This document shows, piece by piece, positions 45,019 to 55,298 of a DNA stretch of 64,000 nucleotides (within the stretch, counting starts at the first letter, position 1; each line of letters opens with the position of its first letter). Source of the DNA: Halonotius aquaticus (GTDB taxonomy: Archaea; Halobacteriota; Halobacteria; Halobacteriales; Haloferacaceae); assembly GCF_003605575.1 (NCBI RefSeq), contig NZ_QKNY01000018.1, forward strand, positions 434,001 through 498,000, written 5' to 3'. The translations under genes and the position numbers were made by a program. The notes under the pieces are model-generated. The model had not been told where the DNA came from and did not search any database. It worked only from the letters and a program-made list of their open reading frames with translations.

Positions 45019-45135
45019 ATGAATCGACAGGAATCAAGGGCAAGCTCAAACGAAACCGCCGGGCATTCGCGTGGAGAGTACACAGTCCACGTCACATACC
45101 GGCAATCAGTGGCCTCATGGGTCGATAAACGATGA
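45019..45135 (+). CDS. Small ORF overlapping the surface-protein start
   Basis: A 38-codon frame from ATG 45019, preceded by GAGGAG (a Shine-Dalgarno-like element 8 nt upstream), whose TGA overlaps the ATG of the large surface-protein gene (ATGA at 45132-45135). The peptide starts MNRQESRASSNETAGHSRGE and is hydrophilic. It may be a translational coupler or a small protein; no family. Confidence 0.3.
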   Translation: MNRQESRASSNETAGHSRGEYTVHVTYRQSVASWVDKR

Positions 45136-46817
45136 CGACAACGAAGATCCAGATCCGGGCAATGCTGCTTGTGGTGGTCATGATAGTGTCAGCAGTAGCA
45201 ATGGGAGCCGCGTTTGCCGGCTCAACTGCTGCCCAAGCCCAAGGCGGCGACAACCCTGGCGGTGGTAACGGCAACAGCGGCGGGGGTGCTGATTCTGGCG
45301 GTAGTGGTGGAAGTGATGCTGGTGGTGGCGGCAGTAGTGATGGTAACGGCGGTGGCAACGATGGTGCCGGTGGCGGCGGTTCTAATTCTGATGGCAGTGG
45401 TGGAAGTGATAGTAGCGGTGGTACGGGAAGTGATGGTGGTAACGGCGGCGGCAACGACGGCAGCAGCAGAGAGGGTTCCAATTCTGGCGGCAGTGGCGGC
45501 GGTAATACCGGGTCAGGTTCTGATGGCGGTAGTGGCGGAGGGGATGGTGACAGTGGTGACGCTAATAGTGGCTCTGGCTCTGCCGGTAACGACGGAGATA
45601 GTGGCGGTAACAGCGGAAACAGTGGGAGCGGTTCTAATGCTGGCAGTGGTAGTGGTGATTCTGACTCTGGCGGTAGCAATGGCGAGAACGGTGACACCAG
45701 TAATGGAAAAAGTGACAGAGGCAACAGCGACAGTTCTAATTCTGCCGGTAATGGTGGCAGTTCTAATCCTGGTGACAGTAATAATGGTAATAGTGGTTCT
45801 GACTCTACCGGAAATAGCGGCGACAGCTCTAATGCTGGTGGCAGTAATGGTAACAGCGATAATTCGGCTGGTGGAAACGGTGCCAGCAACGGTGGCTCGG
45901 ATACCGCCCGAAGGTCGACTCCTGCTGGCAACAGCGACAGTAGCGGCAACGCGAACGAGAACAACGCTGGCGGGAATAACGACAACGCTGCCGGGAGCGG
46001 CGCGTCAAACACAAACGGACAGGGAGTGGCCGGCAACAGCCCGGATATCAGGGAAGTCGCCGACAGGGTTCGGAGTTCCAATCCCGACGCAGCAACCGAA
46101 GTCGAGATCGACGACACCCGACCTGACACACCGGGAGCCACAGTTCGACCGGAAACAACCACCCAGACCGTCACTGAGGTCACCCTCGATGACGAAACGC
46201 TCCGTGGCAGCGTCGAGGTGAAAGAGTACACCAACCCACCGGCCGAGGTGACCGACGCGCTCACCGCAAGTGTCGCCAGTGATCTCGCCGACGCTGCGGC
46301 CGATCCGAGTGAGCGAGGCACCAGCGACGAGGGATTTGACAGCGAAGGCGACGAAGAGAAACCCACTGAGGATTCGACCGCTGAAACCGGCGAATCGGCC
46401 GTCAATGTCGTCACCGTCGCCGACATATCCGTCTTCGACGAGGCGGGCGAGCCGGCCAGCGACACCCCCGCGACGGTGACCATGCAGGTCGATACAGCCG
46501 AACTGAACGAGCCGGAGAACGCGGTCGTCGTCCACGAAACTGACGACGGCTGGGAACAACTGGAGACAACAGTTGAAACCACCACAGCTGAAACGGTTAC
46601 CCTGCGTGCGAAAACCGGCGGATTCTCGCTGTTTGCTGTCGCGGAACTCAACGGCGAGGACGACACCGATTCTGAAGAGACGGCAAACGCAATCAACGCG
46701 ACGACGGCAGCGAATGCGACGGCAACGACGACCAACAGCACCCTCGGCTTCGGGATCGGGGCCAGTTTCATCGCACTGGCGGCGACAACGCTGCTCGCGT
46801 GGCGACCCGGTCGGTAG
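45132..46817 (+). CDS. Secreted/surface protein with Gly-Ser-Asn-rich region and PGF-pre-PGF-like domain
   Basis: A 561-residue protein. Signal peptide: basic start (MTTTKIQIRA), hydrophobic LLVVVMIVSAVAMGAAFAG, probable cut near ASTAAQAQG. Residues 37-300 are a low-complexity Gly/Ser/Asn/Asp linker. Residues 310-505 (from RSSNPDAATEVEIDD) match the PGF-pre-PGF pattern: GSVEVKEYTNPPAEV, ATVTMQVDTAELNEPENAVVVHE, GGFSLFAVAEL. The C-terminus is a short Thr/Asn linker, LGFGIGASFIALAATTLLAW and PGR: a PGF-CTERM-like sorting tail without a standard PGF motif. Likely anchored to the cell surface, perhaps by lipid. Confidence 0.85.
   Translation: MTTTKIQIRAMLLVVVMIVSAVAMGAAFAGSTAAQAQGGDNPGGGNGNSGGGADSGGSGGSDAGGGGSSDGNGGGNDGAGGGGSNSDGSGGSDSSGGTGSDGGNGGGNDGSSREGSNSGGSGGGNTGSGSDGGSGGGDGDSGDANSGSGSAGNDGDSGGNSGNSGSGSNAGSGSGDSDSGGSNGENGDTSNGKSDRGNSDSSNSAGNGGSSNPGDSNNGNSGSDSTGNSGDSSNAGGSNGNSDNSAGGNGASNGGSDTARRSTPAGNSDSSGNANENNAGGNNDNAAGSGASNTNGQGVAGNSPDIREVADRVRSSNPDAATEVEIDDTRPDTPGATVRPETTTQTVTEVTLDDETLRGSVEVKEYTNPPAEVTDALTASVASDLADAAADPSERGTSDEGFDSEGDEEKPTEDSTAETGESAVNVVTVADISVFDEAGEPASDTPATVTMQVDTAELNEPENAVVVHETDDGWEQLETTVETTTAETVTLRAKTGGFSLFAVAELNGEDDTDSEETANAINATTAANATATTTNSTLGFGIGASFIALAATTLLAWRPGR
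45240..46020 (+). repeat. Low-complexity Gly/Ser/Asn-coding tract
   Basis: The stretch codes for a Gly, Ser, Asn and Asp mixture built on GGT/GGC/AGT/AAC/GAT codons. It is relatively T-rich and lower in GC than the flanks. It also stays open in the other frames and on the opposite strand because of the G-N-N and R-N-Y codon pattern. Prone to length change by slippage. Confidence 0.75.
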
Positions 46818-50147: not shown

Positions 50148-51119
50148 ATGTACGGGTGGCTCAACCGTCAGTTTCGCCGTGGCTACGAGCGGCTGCTCCG
50201 CCGGGAGATCGGCGAGGGGCCGACCCACGTCGCCATTATTCAGGACGGCAACCGTCGATACGCCCGCAAACAGGGCGAGGACGCCCCTGAGGGCCACCGT
50301 GAGGGTGCCGACACCGCCGAGCAGGTACTCAACTGGTGTGAGGAACTCGGCATCGACGAGCTAACGCTGTATGCCTTTTCGACCGAGAACTTTGAGCGGC
50401 CACCCGAAGAACGGGAGCCACTCTTTGATATCATCGAAGCCAAGCTCTATGAACTCGCCGACAGCGACCGTGTCCACACCAACGAGGTCTCGATCCGAGC
50501 GATCGGCGAAATCGAGCGACTCCCTGAGCGCGTCCAAGACGCCATCGCCTACGCCGAAGCCGAGACGGCCGACTACAACAGCTTCCGACTCAACGTTGCG
50601 CTCGCCTACGGCGGCCGAAACGAGTTGCTTCGGGCGGCCCGCGAAGTCGCGACCGCCGTCGACAACGGCGACCTCGACGCCGACGATGTTGATCCCGAAG
50701 CAATCGAGAACCGTTTGTACCGTCAGCCGGTACGAGATGTCGACCTGATCATCCGCACCGGCGGCGACGAACGCACCTCGAATTTCCTGCCGTGGCACGC
50801 CAACGGCAACGAGGCCGCCGTCTACTTCTGTGCGCCCTACTGGCCGGAGTTCTCGAAGATCGACTTCCTGCGAGGGATTCGTACCTACGAGGCCCGCGAG
50901 GAGTCGTGGCAAGAAAGCAAGATCGACCGCGCTGTCGCGCTGGCCGGCGCGGTCGGCAGCCTTGAACTCAAGGAGGCCAGCGAGTTGGTGAGCCGACTCC
51001 GCGGGAAGCTGCCGCAAGCCGGCCGTCGGGCCGTCGCCGAGGAACTTGAGACGGCGACGCCAGCCGACGATGACTCGGAGTCGCCGGGGGCGGATGCAAC
51101 CCTCGACCTTGCTGACTAA
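50148..51119 (+). CDS. uppS: cis-prenyltransferase (UppS-like), catalytic-type subunit
   Basis: A 323-residue cis-prenyltransferase: VAIIQDGNRRYARKQGE with catalytic Asp33, GIDELTLYAFSTENFERPPEERE, RLNVALAYGGRNELLRA and IIRTGGDERTSNFLPWHANGNEAAVYFC. Extra C-terminal 60 residues are acidic. The usual RXG motif near the end of the catalytic fold (RRFG in bacterial enzymes) is absent: the region reads IRTYEAREESWQES. That matches eukaryotic DHDDS, which needs the RXG-bearing partner NgBR. It would make the polyprenyl-phosphate carrier for N-glycosylation. Convergent with its paralogue at 51135. Confidence 0.92.
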   Translation: MYGWLNRQFRRGYERLLRREIGEGPTHVAIIQDGNRRYARKQGEDAPEGHREGADTAEQVLNWCEELGIDELTLYAFSTENFERPPEEREPLFDIIEAKLYELADSDRVHTNEVSIRAIGEIERLPERVQDAIAYAEAETADYNSFRLNVALAYGGRNELLRAAREVATAVDNGDLDADDVDPEAIENRLYRQPVRDVDLIIRTGGDERTSNFLPWHANGNEAAVYFCAPYWPEFSKIDFLRGIRTYEAREESWQESKIDRAVALAGAVGSLELKEASELVSRLRGKLPQAGRRAVAEELETATPADDDSESPGADATLDLAD

Positions 51120-51134
51120 ACCGCCTGCCAACTG

Positions 51135-51740
51135 TTATTTGCCGAACCGTCGCTGGCGATCAGCGTAATCGAGCAGCGCGCGCAGGTAGTCGCGCTTGCG
51201 GAAATCCCGCCAGTTCACGTCAGTAAAGTAGAGCTCGGAGTAGACGGACTGCCAGATCATGAAATCCGAGAGCCGCTCGGCCCCTGTTTTGATGACGAGA
51301 TCGGGCTCATCCCGGAAGACGAGCCGCCTGTCGATATCGTCGGCCTCGATCGCTTCCGGTTCAAGATGGCCGTCGTCAACGGCTTCGGCAAGCTGGCGGA
51401 CGGTTTCGGCAAACTCGCGTTTGCCGCCAAGGCCGATACTCACCTGAATGGGGGCATCGGCGGATTCGGTGTCGCCGGGGCGGCGTACCGCCAGCGGCAG
51501 CGGTGTCTCTAAGGCGGTGAGCTCGCGGCTGAGCGTCGGGATGACAGCCTCATCAAGGACGCTCACGGAGACGGTGATCCGGTCAGCACCGTACTCGACA
51601 GCCCATCCGAAGAAGTCCCGCAACGTCTCGTAGGCCCCCTGTTCGAGGAGATCGCGTTCGGTGATGACGACAGCGACGTGTTCCGGCGGCGGGTTCGACT
51701 CCCGGCGAAGCCGCAACGAAAGATAGGCCTCGTAGAGCAC
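51135..51740 (-). CDS. cis-prenyltransferase paralogue, non-catalytic-type partner
   Basis: A 201-residue UppS-family protein starting at GTG 51738-51740, 28 nt after a T-rich promoter-like run. It has the fold signature (VAVVITERDLLEQG; VSIGLGGKREFAETVRQLAE; DLVIKTGAERLSDFMIWQSVYSELYF) but lacks the DGNRR motif: ITERD stands in place of the catalytic Asp position. Conversely, it ends RQRRFGK and so retains an RXG-type motif. This split of catalytic Asp and RXG is that of DHDDS/NgBR and of heteromeric archaeal cis-prenyltransferases. Alternative GTG at 51809 gives 23 extra residues. Confidence 0.88.
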   Translation of the reverse strand: MLYEAYLSLRLRRESNPPPEHVAVVITERDLLEQGAYETLRDFFGWAVEYGADRITVSVSVLDEAVIPTLSRELTALETPLPLAVRRPGDTESADAPIQVSIGLGGKREFAETVRQLAEAVDDGHLEPEAIEADDIDRRLVFRDEPDLVIKTGAERLSDFMIWQSVYSELYFTDVNWRDFRKRDYLRALLDYADRQRRFGK

Positions 51741-51862: not shown

Positions 51863-53194
51863 GTGACATCACGGGTTCGTCGTGCCGGCGCGTTCGCCCT
51901 CGTGGCCACGCTGTCGCTTGTGGCCCCGATTGCCGGCGCGGCGACAGCGGTTCCCTTCGCCGCCATCGGCGTGGCCGCGGCAACACTCATCAACGACGGC
52001 CCCGTCTTCGAGTTATTTGCCCGACCGGGCGATCGGCAGGACGGCCGGCTCAACGGGCTGGCCGGCTTCGGCTTTGCAGCCGCTGGGTTGGCCTTACTGT
52101 TGGCACTGCCGCAGGCTGGGCTCCCAGCGGAGATCTTTGTCGCCGCCCTGTTGGTACTCGGCGTCGGCAACCTCGGGACTGAGATCGCCCGCACCCGCAG
52201 TAGCGATCCATTTCTCGCCGTCGCCGGCTTTCTTGCCGGCGGGATTCCGGCAGCGATCGCCGGCCAGTTCGTCGTCGGAGTCGTCAACGGCGAGACCGTC
52301 GCGTGGTCGGCGGTGATCTTTCTGGCCGTGATCGGCGGGCTGATCGCCGCGCTGCTCAGAGAGTTGCTGTACGAGCGTGACGATCCGGTCGTCGTGTTGT
52401 CGGTCGGCCTCGCCAGTTGGTTTGTCGCCACGTTGGTCGGCACAGTCCCAACCACGGAGTTGATCGCCGCCGTCATCGTGACCGTCGCCCTCGGTGGGAT
52501 CTCCTACGGGCTTGGGACGGCCAATGTCTCCGGAATGCTGACCGGGATCTTGCTCGGCGTGTTGACGATCGTCCTCGGCGGCTTCGGCTGGTTTGCCGTG
52601 TTGATCGCCTTCTTTGCGATCGGCGGGCTGGCCTCGAAGTTTCGCTACGACCGAAAGGCCGCCCGCGGCGTCGCCGAGGACAACAACGGCGCCCGCGGGA
52701 TGAGCAACGTCCTTGCCAACTCGGGGGTTGCCCTGCTAGCGGTCATCGCGGCCGCCGCCGGGGAGCTGGTCGAGCCAGCAGCCATCGTCAGCCTCGCCAT
52801 CCCGTTTGCCTTCGCCGGCTCGCTGGCGACCGCTCTCGGCGACACGCTGTCGAGTGAGATCGGCTGTCTCTACGACCGGCCGCGGCTCATCACCACCTTC
52901 GAGCGTGTCGACCCCGGCACCGACGGCGCGGTGACGTGGCAGGGCGAACTCGCCGGGCTCGTCGGCATCGGGATCATCAGCGCGTTAGCGACGGCGACGC
53001 TCCCGCTTGGGCCAGGTGGAGCGACCGGCATCGCCGCTGGCATCGTCGCCGCTGGCGGGCTCGCTGGCATCACGACCGATAGCATACTGGGGGCGACCAT
53101 CGAGGGTGACCGACTCGGCAACCAACTGGTGAACTTCTGTGCAACGCTGACCGGCGGCGGCGTCAGCGTCGCCCTCGCAGTCGTCCTGTTGTGA
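51863..53194 (+). CDS. DUF92/VTE6-like membrane kinase
   Basis: A 443-residue membrane protein with about ten segments. The C-terminal half has the DUF92 core: RKAARGVAEDNNGARGMSNVLANSGVALL, SLATALGDTLSSEIGCLY, ITTFERVDPGTDGAVTWQGELAGL and GITTDSILGATIEG. DUF92 includes plant VTE6, which phosphorylates phytyl phosphate. The N-terminal 200 residues add hydrophobic segments typical of haloarchaeal members. GTG start at 51863, TATA-like GCGTTAAGTGG at 51832-51842. TGATG overlap with the GNAT gene. Confidence 0.85.
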   Translation: MTSRVRRAGAFALVATLSLVAPIAGAATAVPFAAIGVAAATLINDGPVFELFARPGDRQDGRLNGLAGFGFAAAGLALLLALPQAGLPAEIFVAALLVLGVGNLGTEIARTRSSDPFLAVAGFLAGGIPAAIAGQFVVGVVNGETVAWSAVIFLAVIGGLIAALLRELLYERDDPVVVLSVGLASWFVATLVGTVPTTELIAAVIVTVALGGISYGLGTANVSGMLTGILLGVLTIVLGGFGWFAVLIAFFAIGGLASKFRYDRKAARGVAEDNNGARGMSNVLANSGVALLAVIAAAAGELVEPAAIVSLAIPFAFAGSLATALGDTLSSEIGCLYDRPRLITTFERVDPGTDGAVTWQGELAGLVGIGIISALATATLPLGPGGATGIAAGIVAAGGLAGITTDSILGATIEGDRLGNQLVNFCATLTGGGVSVALAVVLL

Positions 53195-53676
53195 TGCGGT
53201 CGACGATCCGCCACGCAACAGCCGCTGATGCGGCAAGGATTCGCACGCTGCAAGCAGAACTGACCGAGCCTGCACCAACTCTGTTGGACGCAGCACTCAC
53301 CCAAGTAGACACAGCAAGCAACGCGGGAGCCACAACAGCCGACAACACGTCACCAGCGATCGGTGAGTCGTTTGGGCTGTTCGTCTCGGTCAACAACGCT
53401 GATCTGGCCGTTGGCTATCTGCTCGCAGTGACAGGCGAACCAACGCATATTGCTGAGCTCGTTGTCGAGCCAGCATATCGCCGAGAGGGGCGAGCGAAGG
53501 CACTACTTGCCACCATGCTCGAACAATACGGCCATCCGATAACCGTCCACGTCGCTGTCGACAACACGGCGGCACGATCGCTCTATGAAGCAGTCGGGTT
53601 TCAGGAACAGGCGCGAAGCGACGATCAATTCGACGACACCACCGGGGTGACGCTGCGGTATCCAAGCGAGGATTAG
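53194..53676 (+). CDS. GNAT acetyltransferase
   Basis: A 160-residue GNAT-fold protein. The acetyl-CoA loop [21 protein letters not shown] (R-x-x-G-x-A type) lies at about 90-110 and [20 protein letters not shown] near the end. N-terminal [19 protein letters not shown] is typical. Substrate unknown; it may acetylate a protein N-terminus or a small amine. ATG 53194 overlaps the DUF92 stop by one nucleotide; its TAG overlaps the convergent dnaG stop by 3 nt. Confidence 0.82.
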
Positions 53677-55298
53677 GCTTCCAGTTCCGGCTCTGGTGGC
53701 TGCAGTTCCGCGGCGGTTACCACCCGCGTTCCGATCGGCTTTTTGACGAACTCGCCGGTGCTGGCGGCGACAATGTGATCGAGACCGTGTTGGGCAGCAA
53801 CATCGAGGATTCGCTGGCTGCATTCGCCGTCGAGTACCAGCGCGTACGGCTCGTCGGCGGCTTCGATGGCCTCAATGAGTGCTGCTGGCTCGGTCTCGGT
53901 GATGACCCCAAACTCGGCGTCAAGGAGTCGGGCGGTGCCAGTCTCCGCATCGATGACCGCCTCAACGTGGCTGCGTAGGGTCACTGGCTTGGCGTCGTCA
54001 TCGGCATTGGTAGCGTCGTCAGATTCGTCGGCGTCGTCAGCCGAGGGCTCGGCGTCGACAGCCGAATCGGGGTCATCGTCCGCATTGTCGCTGACCGCAG
54101 GTGTCGTGGGAGAGCCAGCGTCAGCCGGGGAGTCAGATATCGCATCCGGTGGGGTAGCCCCATCGTCGGAAACAGGTGCTGCCGCATCGGCATCGGCCGT
54201 CGCGGCGTCAGCGTCAGCCGTGTCGTCGACGGCCCCAGCAGCGTCGACAGCTGACTCCGCTGTGACGGCTTCGTTATTTGTGTTTGACTCAGCGTCCGCG
54301 GCGGCGACCCGAGATGATGTGCCGGTAGGAGGCTGGTCGGACGGCGGCGACGGCGACGCCGCAGGGGAACTCGTCGGAACGACCTCGACCTCAGTGTCCT
54401 CGTCGTCCGGCGGCAGGTGGTCGTCGGCCGACCGGGGTCGCTCGTCGGCGGTTTCGTCGATGATGTCGGCGATCGCCTCCCGGACGTTTGGCGCGCCGCG
54501 AAGCCGGTCGGCGATGACCTTCTGCCGGAGGCGATCAAGCACGGCTGCTCGGGACAGATCCTCAACCGACTGATCGGGCGGCGCAAAGGCGACGAAGTCA
54601 ACATCACCGACCTGCAGCAGCTCCCGGAGGATGAGCTCGCCGCCGCGGTCGCCGTCGACAAAGACGGTCGTCGTTCGCTCGGCGGTAAGATCGGCGACGG
54701 CGTCGGGCACGTCGGTACCCTCGACGGCGATGGCGTTTTTGATCCCGTAGGCCAGCAGCTGACGCACGTCGGCCCGGCCTTCGACGACGATCACCGCATC
54801 GGAGCTTTCGACCCGCGGGCCAGCGGGCAGCCCCTTGTAGTCGACAACATCGGCGACGCGGGCCGAATCCCGCACGTCGTCGACGAGATCAGCACCAGAG
54901 ACGCCGGTTTCGTCGAACGCTGTCGCCAACAGCTCCTTGGCACGGTCGACGATCTCCCGGCGTTTGGCCGCCCGGATATCCTCAATGGCGGTGACCTCGA
55001 TGTCGGCTCGACAGGGGCCAACACGGTTGATCGTTTCCAGGGAGGCCGCTAAGATCGCGGTTTCGGCCTTGCCGAGGCTGGTGGCGATCGTCAGCTCGCC
55101 GAACGATTGGCCATTTTCGGAAGAGATCTCAACGTCGATCCGGCCGACCTTCGAGGACTGCTGGAGGTCACGGAGATCCAACTCATCGCCCAACAGCCCC
55201 TCGGTTTGGCCGAAGACCGCGCCGACGACATCGCTGCGCTCGACGATGCCGTTGGCGGCGATCCGGGCGTGAATCAGATACTTAGTTGTGTCGTCCAT
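53673..55298 (-). CDS. dnaG: Archaeal DnaG primase-like protein
   Basis: A 541-residue protein. N-terminal archaeal domain ([33 protein letters not shown]), then the TOPRIM core: [17 protein letters not shown] (Glu) and [18 protein letters not shown] (DxD). Residues about 275-435 are a long acidic, Ala/Asp/Ser/Pro-rich disordered linker. The C-terminal domain follows ([20 protein letters not shown]... [19 protein letters not shown]). Archaeal DnaG associates with the exosome and may have primase activity. Converges on the GNAT gene by 3 nt. Confidence 0.95.

Follow-up and report, generated by a model that had tools for sequence, protein, structure and literature searches.

Convergent genes of Halonotius aquaticus very probably encode a DHDDS/NgBR-like heteromeric cis-prenyltransferase, paired across Halobacteriota

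Why does a haloarchaeal genome carry two genes of the undecaprenyl diphosphate synthase (UppS) family, placed tail to tail, with the catalytic features of the family split between them? The window analysed here, a stretch of 64,000 nucleotides from Halonotius aquaticus, holds two such genes, A and B, which converge with 15 nt between their stop codons (Table 1). A sequence-only reading of the window had drawn attention to the catalytic Asp in QDGNRR and the missing C-terminal RXG of A, and to the ITERD replacement and the RXG-type RRFGK end of B, and had likened the two to eukaryotic DHDDS/NgBR and to the heteromeric enzyme of Methanosarcina. All of these features are borne out here, and the proposed division of labour fits the sequences, the predicted structures, the co-occurrence and order of the genes, and the published M. 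mazei enzyme. We infer that A and B very probably act together as one heteromeric DHDDS/NgBR-like cis-prenyltransferase that makes the polyprenyl glycan carrier. The design itself is already known from human DHDDS/NgBR and from Methanosarcina; what is added here is that the pair is nearly universal across the phylum, that B has an NgBR-like one-residue end and A a DHDDS-like tail, and that the convergent gene order is fixed.

Complementary features of the two genes

The A protein matches PF01255 over the whole domain (E 5.9e-70), and its alignment with human DHDDS places every DHDDS substrate residue in A. In DHDDS, D34 binds Mg2+, R37, R38 and R85 hold the allylic pyrophosphate, and R205, R211 and S213 form the second site (PMC7573591). 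The A residues D33, N35, R36, R37, R84, R203, R209 and S211 are invariant in 49 A sequences from across the phylum. IQDGNRR shows no variation among 17 aligned haloarchaeal A, and DGNRR is found in 71 of the 71 A sampled from fetched loci of the phylum. No conserved terminal RXG was found among these 71. Two related, short-tailed A (L082 and L083) carry an R-x-G close to the C-terminus, offset by about one residue on a hand count, and their relatives are without it.

A further likeness to DHDDS lies in the predicted structure and in the tail. In the PDB, human DHDDS is the top match of the A family profile (245.8 bits), with an alignment that runs from ahead of the core into the tail, and for the AlphaFold model (pLDDT 87.4) the best eight Foldseek matches are all DHDDS chains of the human heterotetramer. 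In this model the last core helix extends to residue 285 and is followed by a turn, a helix at residues 290-303 and a disordered acidic end. Halobacterial A have a long tail, and those of several other classes a short one. In DHDDS, the tail forms a helix-turn-helix that is incompatible with the RXG contact of the homodimer type and joins two heterodimers (PMC7573591); by analogy, the tail of A may play a similar role.

The B protein matches PF01255 in its C-terminal half only (E 5.2e-25, residues 118-223 of a longer open reading frame), and its N-terminal half is divergent and shorter. A gapless alignment of HVAVVITERD in B with HVAIIQDGNR in A refines the sequence-only reading, in that Thr27 of B, and not the Asp of ITERD, stands opposite the catalytic Asp. 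The GH..G and STENF.R motifs are absent from B. No member of B has the catalytic Asp or either of the allylic-site Arg, and B retains the Glu of YSELYF and, in the isopentenyl diphosphate (IPP) site, R156 and S158. Among 17 aligned haloarchaeal B neither ITERD nor RRFG varies; outside Halobacteria the ITERD position is variable but never Asp-Gly-Asn, and DGN occurs in none of the 61 B sampled. R-x-G followed by exactly one residue forms the C-terminal end in 60 of these 61, the exception reading RKFGK. Fifteen residues are invariant in 45 B, including G106, E169, F172, R181, R187, R195, R197 and G200, and R198 is nearly so.

For B, the AlphaFold model (pLDDT 88.6, with a low stretch at residues 165-168) has the cis-prenyltransferase fold and can be superposed on NgBR over residues 1-201 with a Z score of about 15, and likewise on UppS. 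A fold search with this model does not single out NgBR, as UppS chains and NgBR lie within about 1 Z unit of each other. No N-terminal membrane segment is found in B, which has about 20 residues ahead of the domain and one short amphipathic helix. A candidate split of B into two genes in the genomes of one genus (g2) was rejected, as these genomes hold a single open frame with a loop insertion. We further note that the insertion in these B (L136-L148) comprises about 13-17 residues near residue 95, between the two halves, at a place where a disordered loop is found in NgBR too.

Table 1. Features of the A/B locus, in window positions
Feature	Positions	Strand	Basis or remark
Gene A, catalytic-type DHDDS-like cis-prenyltransferase subunit, 323 aa	50148..51119	+	PF01255; AlphaFold/Foldseek
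Motif I IQDGNRR of A, residues 31-37; catalytic Asp33, Arg36, Arg37 (DHDDS D34, R37, R38)	50238..50258	+	Aligned with DHDDS
Arg84 of A, equivalent of DHDDS R85 (S1 pyrophosphate)	50397..50399	+	Invariant in 49 A; function from PMC7573591
RTGGDERTSNF of A, residues 203-213, S2/IPP phosphate site; R203, R209, S211 (DHDDS R205, R211, S213)	50754..50786	+	49 A; PMC7573591
C-terminal helical tail of A, residues 251-323, no RXG	50898..51116	+	AlphaFold model
Spacer between convergent stop codons, 15 nt	51120..51134	.	Sequence
Gene B, non-catalytic NgBR-like cis-prenyltransferase subunit, 201 aa	51135..51740	-	GTG start at 51738-51740
C-terminal RRFGK of B, RXG (R198-F199-G200) plus exactly one residue	51138..51152	-	R-x-G-x end common to B
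ITERD of B, residues 26-30, where A has QDGNRR	51651..51665	-	Alignment; invariant in haloarchaeal B
DUF92 (PF01940) membrane protein gene, divergent from B	51863..53194	+	PF01940 E 2.2e-53

Distribution and gene order across the phylum

A and B are the sole PF01255 genes in the host genome (2.47 Mb, 98% complete). B is present in all 194 sampled Halobacteria, nearly all of which have exactly two PF01255 genes; one draft (G071) holds B only. Together with the invariant motifs of the aligned haloarchaeal A and B, this constancy puts the pair well outside what chance would produce. Across the phylum, the family occurs in 142 of 148 sampled genomes, nearly always as two genes, and profile assignment gives one A and one B to each of 28 genomes from 19 families outside Halobacteria, with the B assignments in families f19 and f25 being partly weak. 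The complementary pair is present in nearly all Halobacteriota genomes examined. In the tree, all A and all B of the phylum each gather on one side of a branch (supports 94/93 and 86/84), so the divergence of A and B predates the radiation of the phylum. These observations take the heteromeric enzyme beyond the single methanogen in which it has been assayed to essentially the entire archaeal phylum, account for the two 'uppS' genes per haloarchaeal genome, and suggest that B is likely to be mislabelled in annotations as undecaprenyl diphosphate synthase.

At distances of up to 12 kb, A and B are convergent in 87 of 87 Halobacteria (at most 1.5 kb apart in 69 of these) and in 12 of 12 other genomes, and no same-strand or divergent neighbors occur among these 99 genomes. 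The count draws on 112 Halobacteria and 28 other genomes listed with both positions, the remainder having the genes far apart or on separate contigs. Among relatives the spacing runs from 13-54 nt of overlap up to several kb. One locus from an incomplete genome (L090, family f25), in which the N-terminus of B is aberrant and the overlap reaches 186 nt, was set aside. The tail-to-tail order excludes a joint transcript of A and B and is an odd arrangement for obligate partners; much of its uniformity is explained by shared descent.

The DUF92 gene adjoins B in 38 of the 55 loci centred on B, and a link between uppS and DUF92 (arCOG02245) was reported in 2015 (PMC5898192). Its product is a putative prenyl-phosphate kinase, possibly of the same pathway. 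Two other genes of the window have long low-complexity regions. One (53676-55298, minus strand) encodes a Toprim-domain protein that resembles archaeal DnaG primase and has a central Asp/Ala-rich stretch of well over 100 residues. The other (45132-46817, plus strand) has a very long Gly/Ser/Asn/Asp region and an apparent C-terminal membrane anchor, with a large mirror open reading frame on the opposite strand.

The proposed enzyme and its alternatives

In the proposed enzyme, A would bind both substrates, with Mg2+ and the allylic diphosphate at D33, R36, R37 and R84 and isopentenyl diphosphate at R203, R209 and S211. B, its allylic site presumably dead, would cross the dimer interface and complete the A active site with its terminal R-F-G-K, as NgBR does for DHDDS. 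The terminal carboxylate of NgBR K293, together with R290 and G292, is described as completing the DHDDS active site, and activity is reported to fall when K293 is removed or one residue is added (PMC7573591). The product would be a long cis-polyprenyl diphosphate, on the way to a dolichol-type carrier for AglB-dependent N-glycosylation. Its length may be C45-50 by analogy with M. mazei, where MM_0618 and MM_1083 are reported to form a heteromeric synthase that makes C45-50 products and is regarded as the source of the glycosyl carrier lipid (PMC8131916, citing Emi et al. 2019 BBRC). This parallel is supported by the tree. One genome of the sample (G299) encodes an orthologue of the crystallised MM_0014, with the end TLGG, which marks it as Methanosarcina or very near; its other two members are one A (L098) and one B (L076), and these fall within the A and B clades. 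Given this orthology with the M. mazei pair, the haloarchaeal pair is expected to act likewise.

M. mazei also supplies a ground for regarding A as a self-sufficient homodimeric synthase and B as an enzyme or regulator in its own right that serves another function. MM_0014 is an active homodimer without RXG (PMC8131916), so the missing RXG alone is no proof that A needs a partner, and A might have some activity by itself. The partly kept IPP site of B and the distance between A and B in some genomes point the same way. However, A does not have the TLGG end of MM_0014, and B is universal despite the loss of its catalytic Asp and both allylic-site Arg, with its RXG end preserved to the residue, which makes independent roles for the two proteins improbable. 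The shorter and divergent N-terminal half of B could also be taken as the mark of a decaying duplicate with no part in catalysis. Decay is hardly credible for a gene that is found in every one of the sampled Halobacteria, falls in a single clade, keeps its 15 invariant residues phylum-wide and has no stop codons inside its frame.

The carrier role of the A/B enzyme is addressed by AglB, which is present in the host genome and in 28 of 28 A+B genomes tested outside Halobacteria. One family of the same phylum (f17; G200, G209, G218, G227 and G234) has no cis-prenyltransferase, and AglB is missing in four of its five drafts; the AglB match in the fifth is at a contig end, in the draft with the highest contamination. 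Carrier lipid and N-glycosylation seem to have been dropped together in this family, probably as one evolutionary event seen in incomplete genomes. The co-occurrence with AglB fits the use of the A/B product in N-glycosylation. A heteromer of A and B could instead serve another product, such as a quinone or membrane isoprenoid, and the presence next to B of DUF92, which is related to prenyl or phytyl phosphate kinases, would be in keeping with this. We consider such a product very unlikely, given that archaeal dolichol phosphate requires a cis-prenyltransferase, that the host has no other, and that AglB is there and accompanies A/B across the phylum.

Relation to known cis-prenyltransferases

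Human DHDDS is like A in that all substrate residues are common to both and a helical tail follows the core. Human NgBR is like B in that it has no Asp motif and ends in R-x-G plus one residue (QRLGK). Bacterial UppS have tails of varying length after RXG, so the one-residue end of B is a specific likeness to NgBR. In contrast, NgBR has an N-terminal membrane segment and B has none, which recommends haloarchaeal B as a soluble model of NgBR without a membrane anchor; B also keeps R156 and S158 of the IPP site, and is thus less degenerate than NgBR.

Whether this likeness reflects descent is a further question. The B profile spans NgBR over its full length (43 bits), whereas the A profile covers the C-terminal half only (33 bits). 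Overall, B scores better with bacterial UppS than with NgBR. The N-terminal half of NgBR scores 18.7 bits with the B profile against 7.0 with the A profile, the best of 2000 shuffles being 11.4, and the likeness reads PxHxxLVITE...; the C-terminal half scores 32.8 bits with the A profile against 25.3 with the B profile. In the tree, human NgBR falls on a very long branch (6.5 changes per site) between B and the rest. The grouping of B with NgBR has support 90/66, but that of DHDDS with NgBR fits the data equally well (a difference of 0.07 log units), and the AU test rejects neither (NgBR+DHDDS p 0.48). We therefore offer only as a doubtful conjecture that B is a relative of eukaryotic NgBR by descent, such that the two-subunit enzyme would be pre-eukaryotic and inherited with its terminal RxG-x-COOH device, and that the tail-to-tail pair is functional, for example in balanced expression through overlapping 3' transcripts, and not a relic. 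Archaeal inheritance of eukaryotic DHDDS/NgBR and the reason for placing obligate partners tail to tail are both made testable by the distribution described here. A yeast actin query against the genome contigs, aimed at Asgard genomes, returned bacterial bins only. The actin genes in these bins (L113-L135) are 43-86% identical to yeast actin, and the most similar are probably eukaryotic contamination.

Among archaea, the Sulfolobus acidocaldarius enzyme is listed as homodimeric (PMC6921004), so the two-subunit design is not universal. The closest known system is that of Methanosarcina, which belongs to the same phylum as the host and has the two PF01255 subunits MM_0618 and MM_1083 besides MM_0014. 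The M. mazei pair has been assayed, whereas the haloarchaeal pair is known from sequence and its A has a longer tail. Moreover, neither the single Methanosarcina genome examined nor the f12 genomes related to it have A and B side by side, in contrast to the host with its closely convergent genes. The MM_0014-type homodimer is of the same family as A and likewise without RXG, but it differs in its TLGG end and its separate clade, and the host genome has none. The homodimeric UppS of E. coli has the same fold, and the C-terminal half and RRFG end of B are closest to UppS; there the Asp motif and RXG are on one chain, whereas in the host they are divided between two genes.
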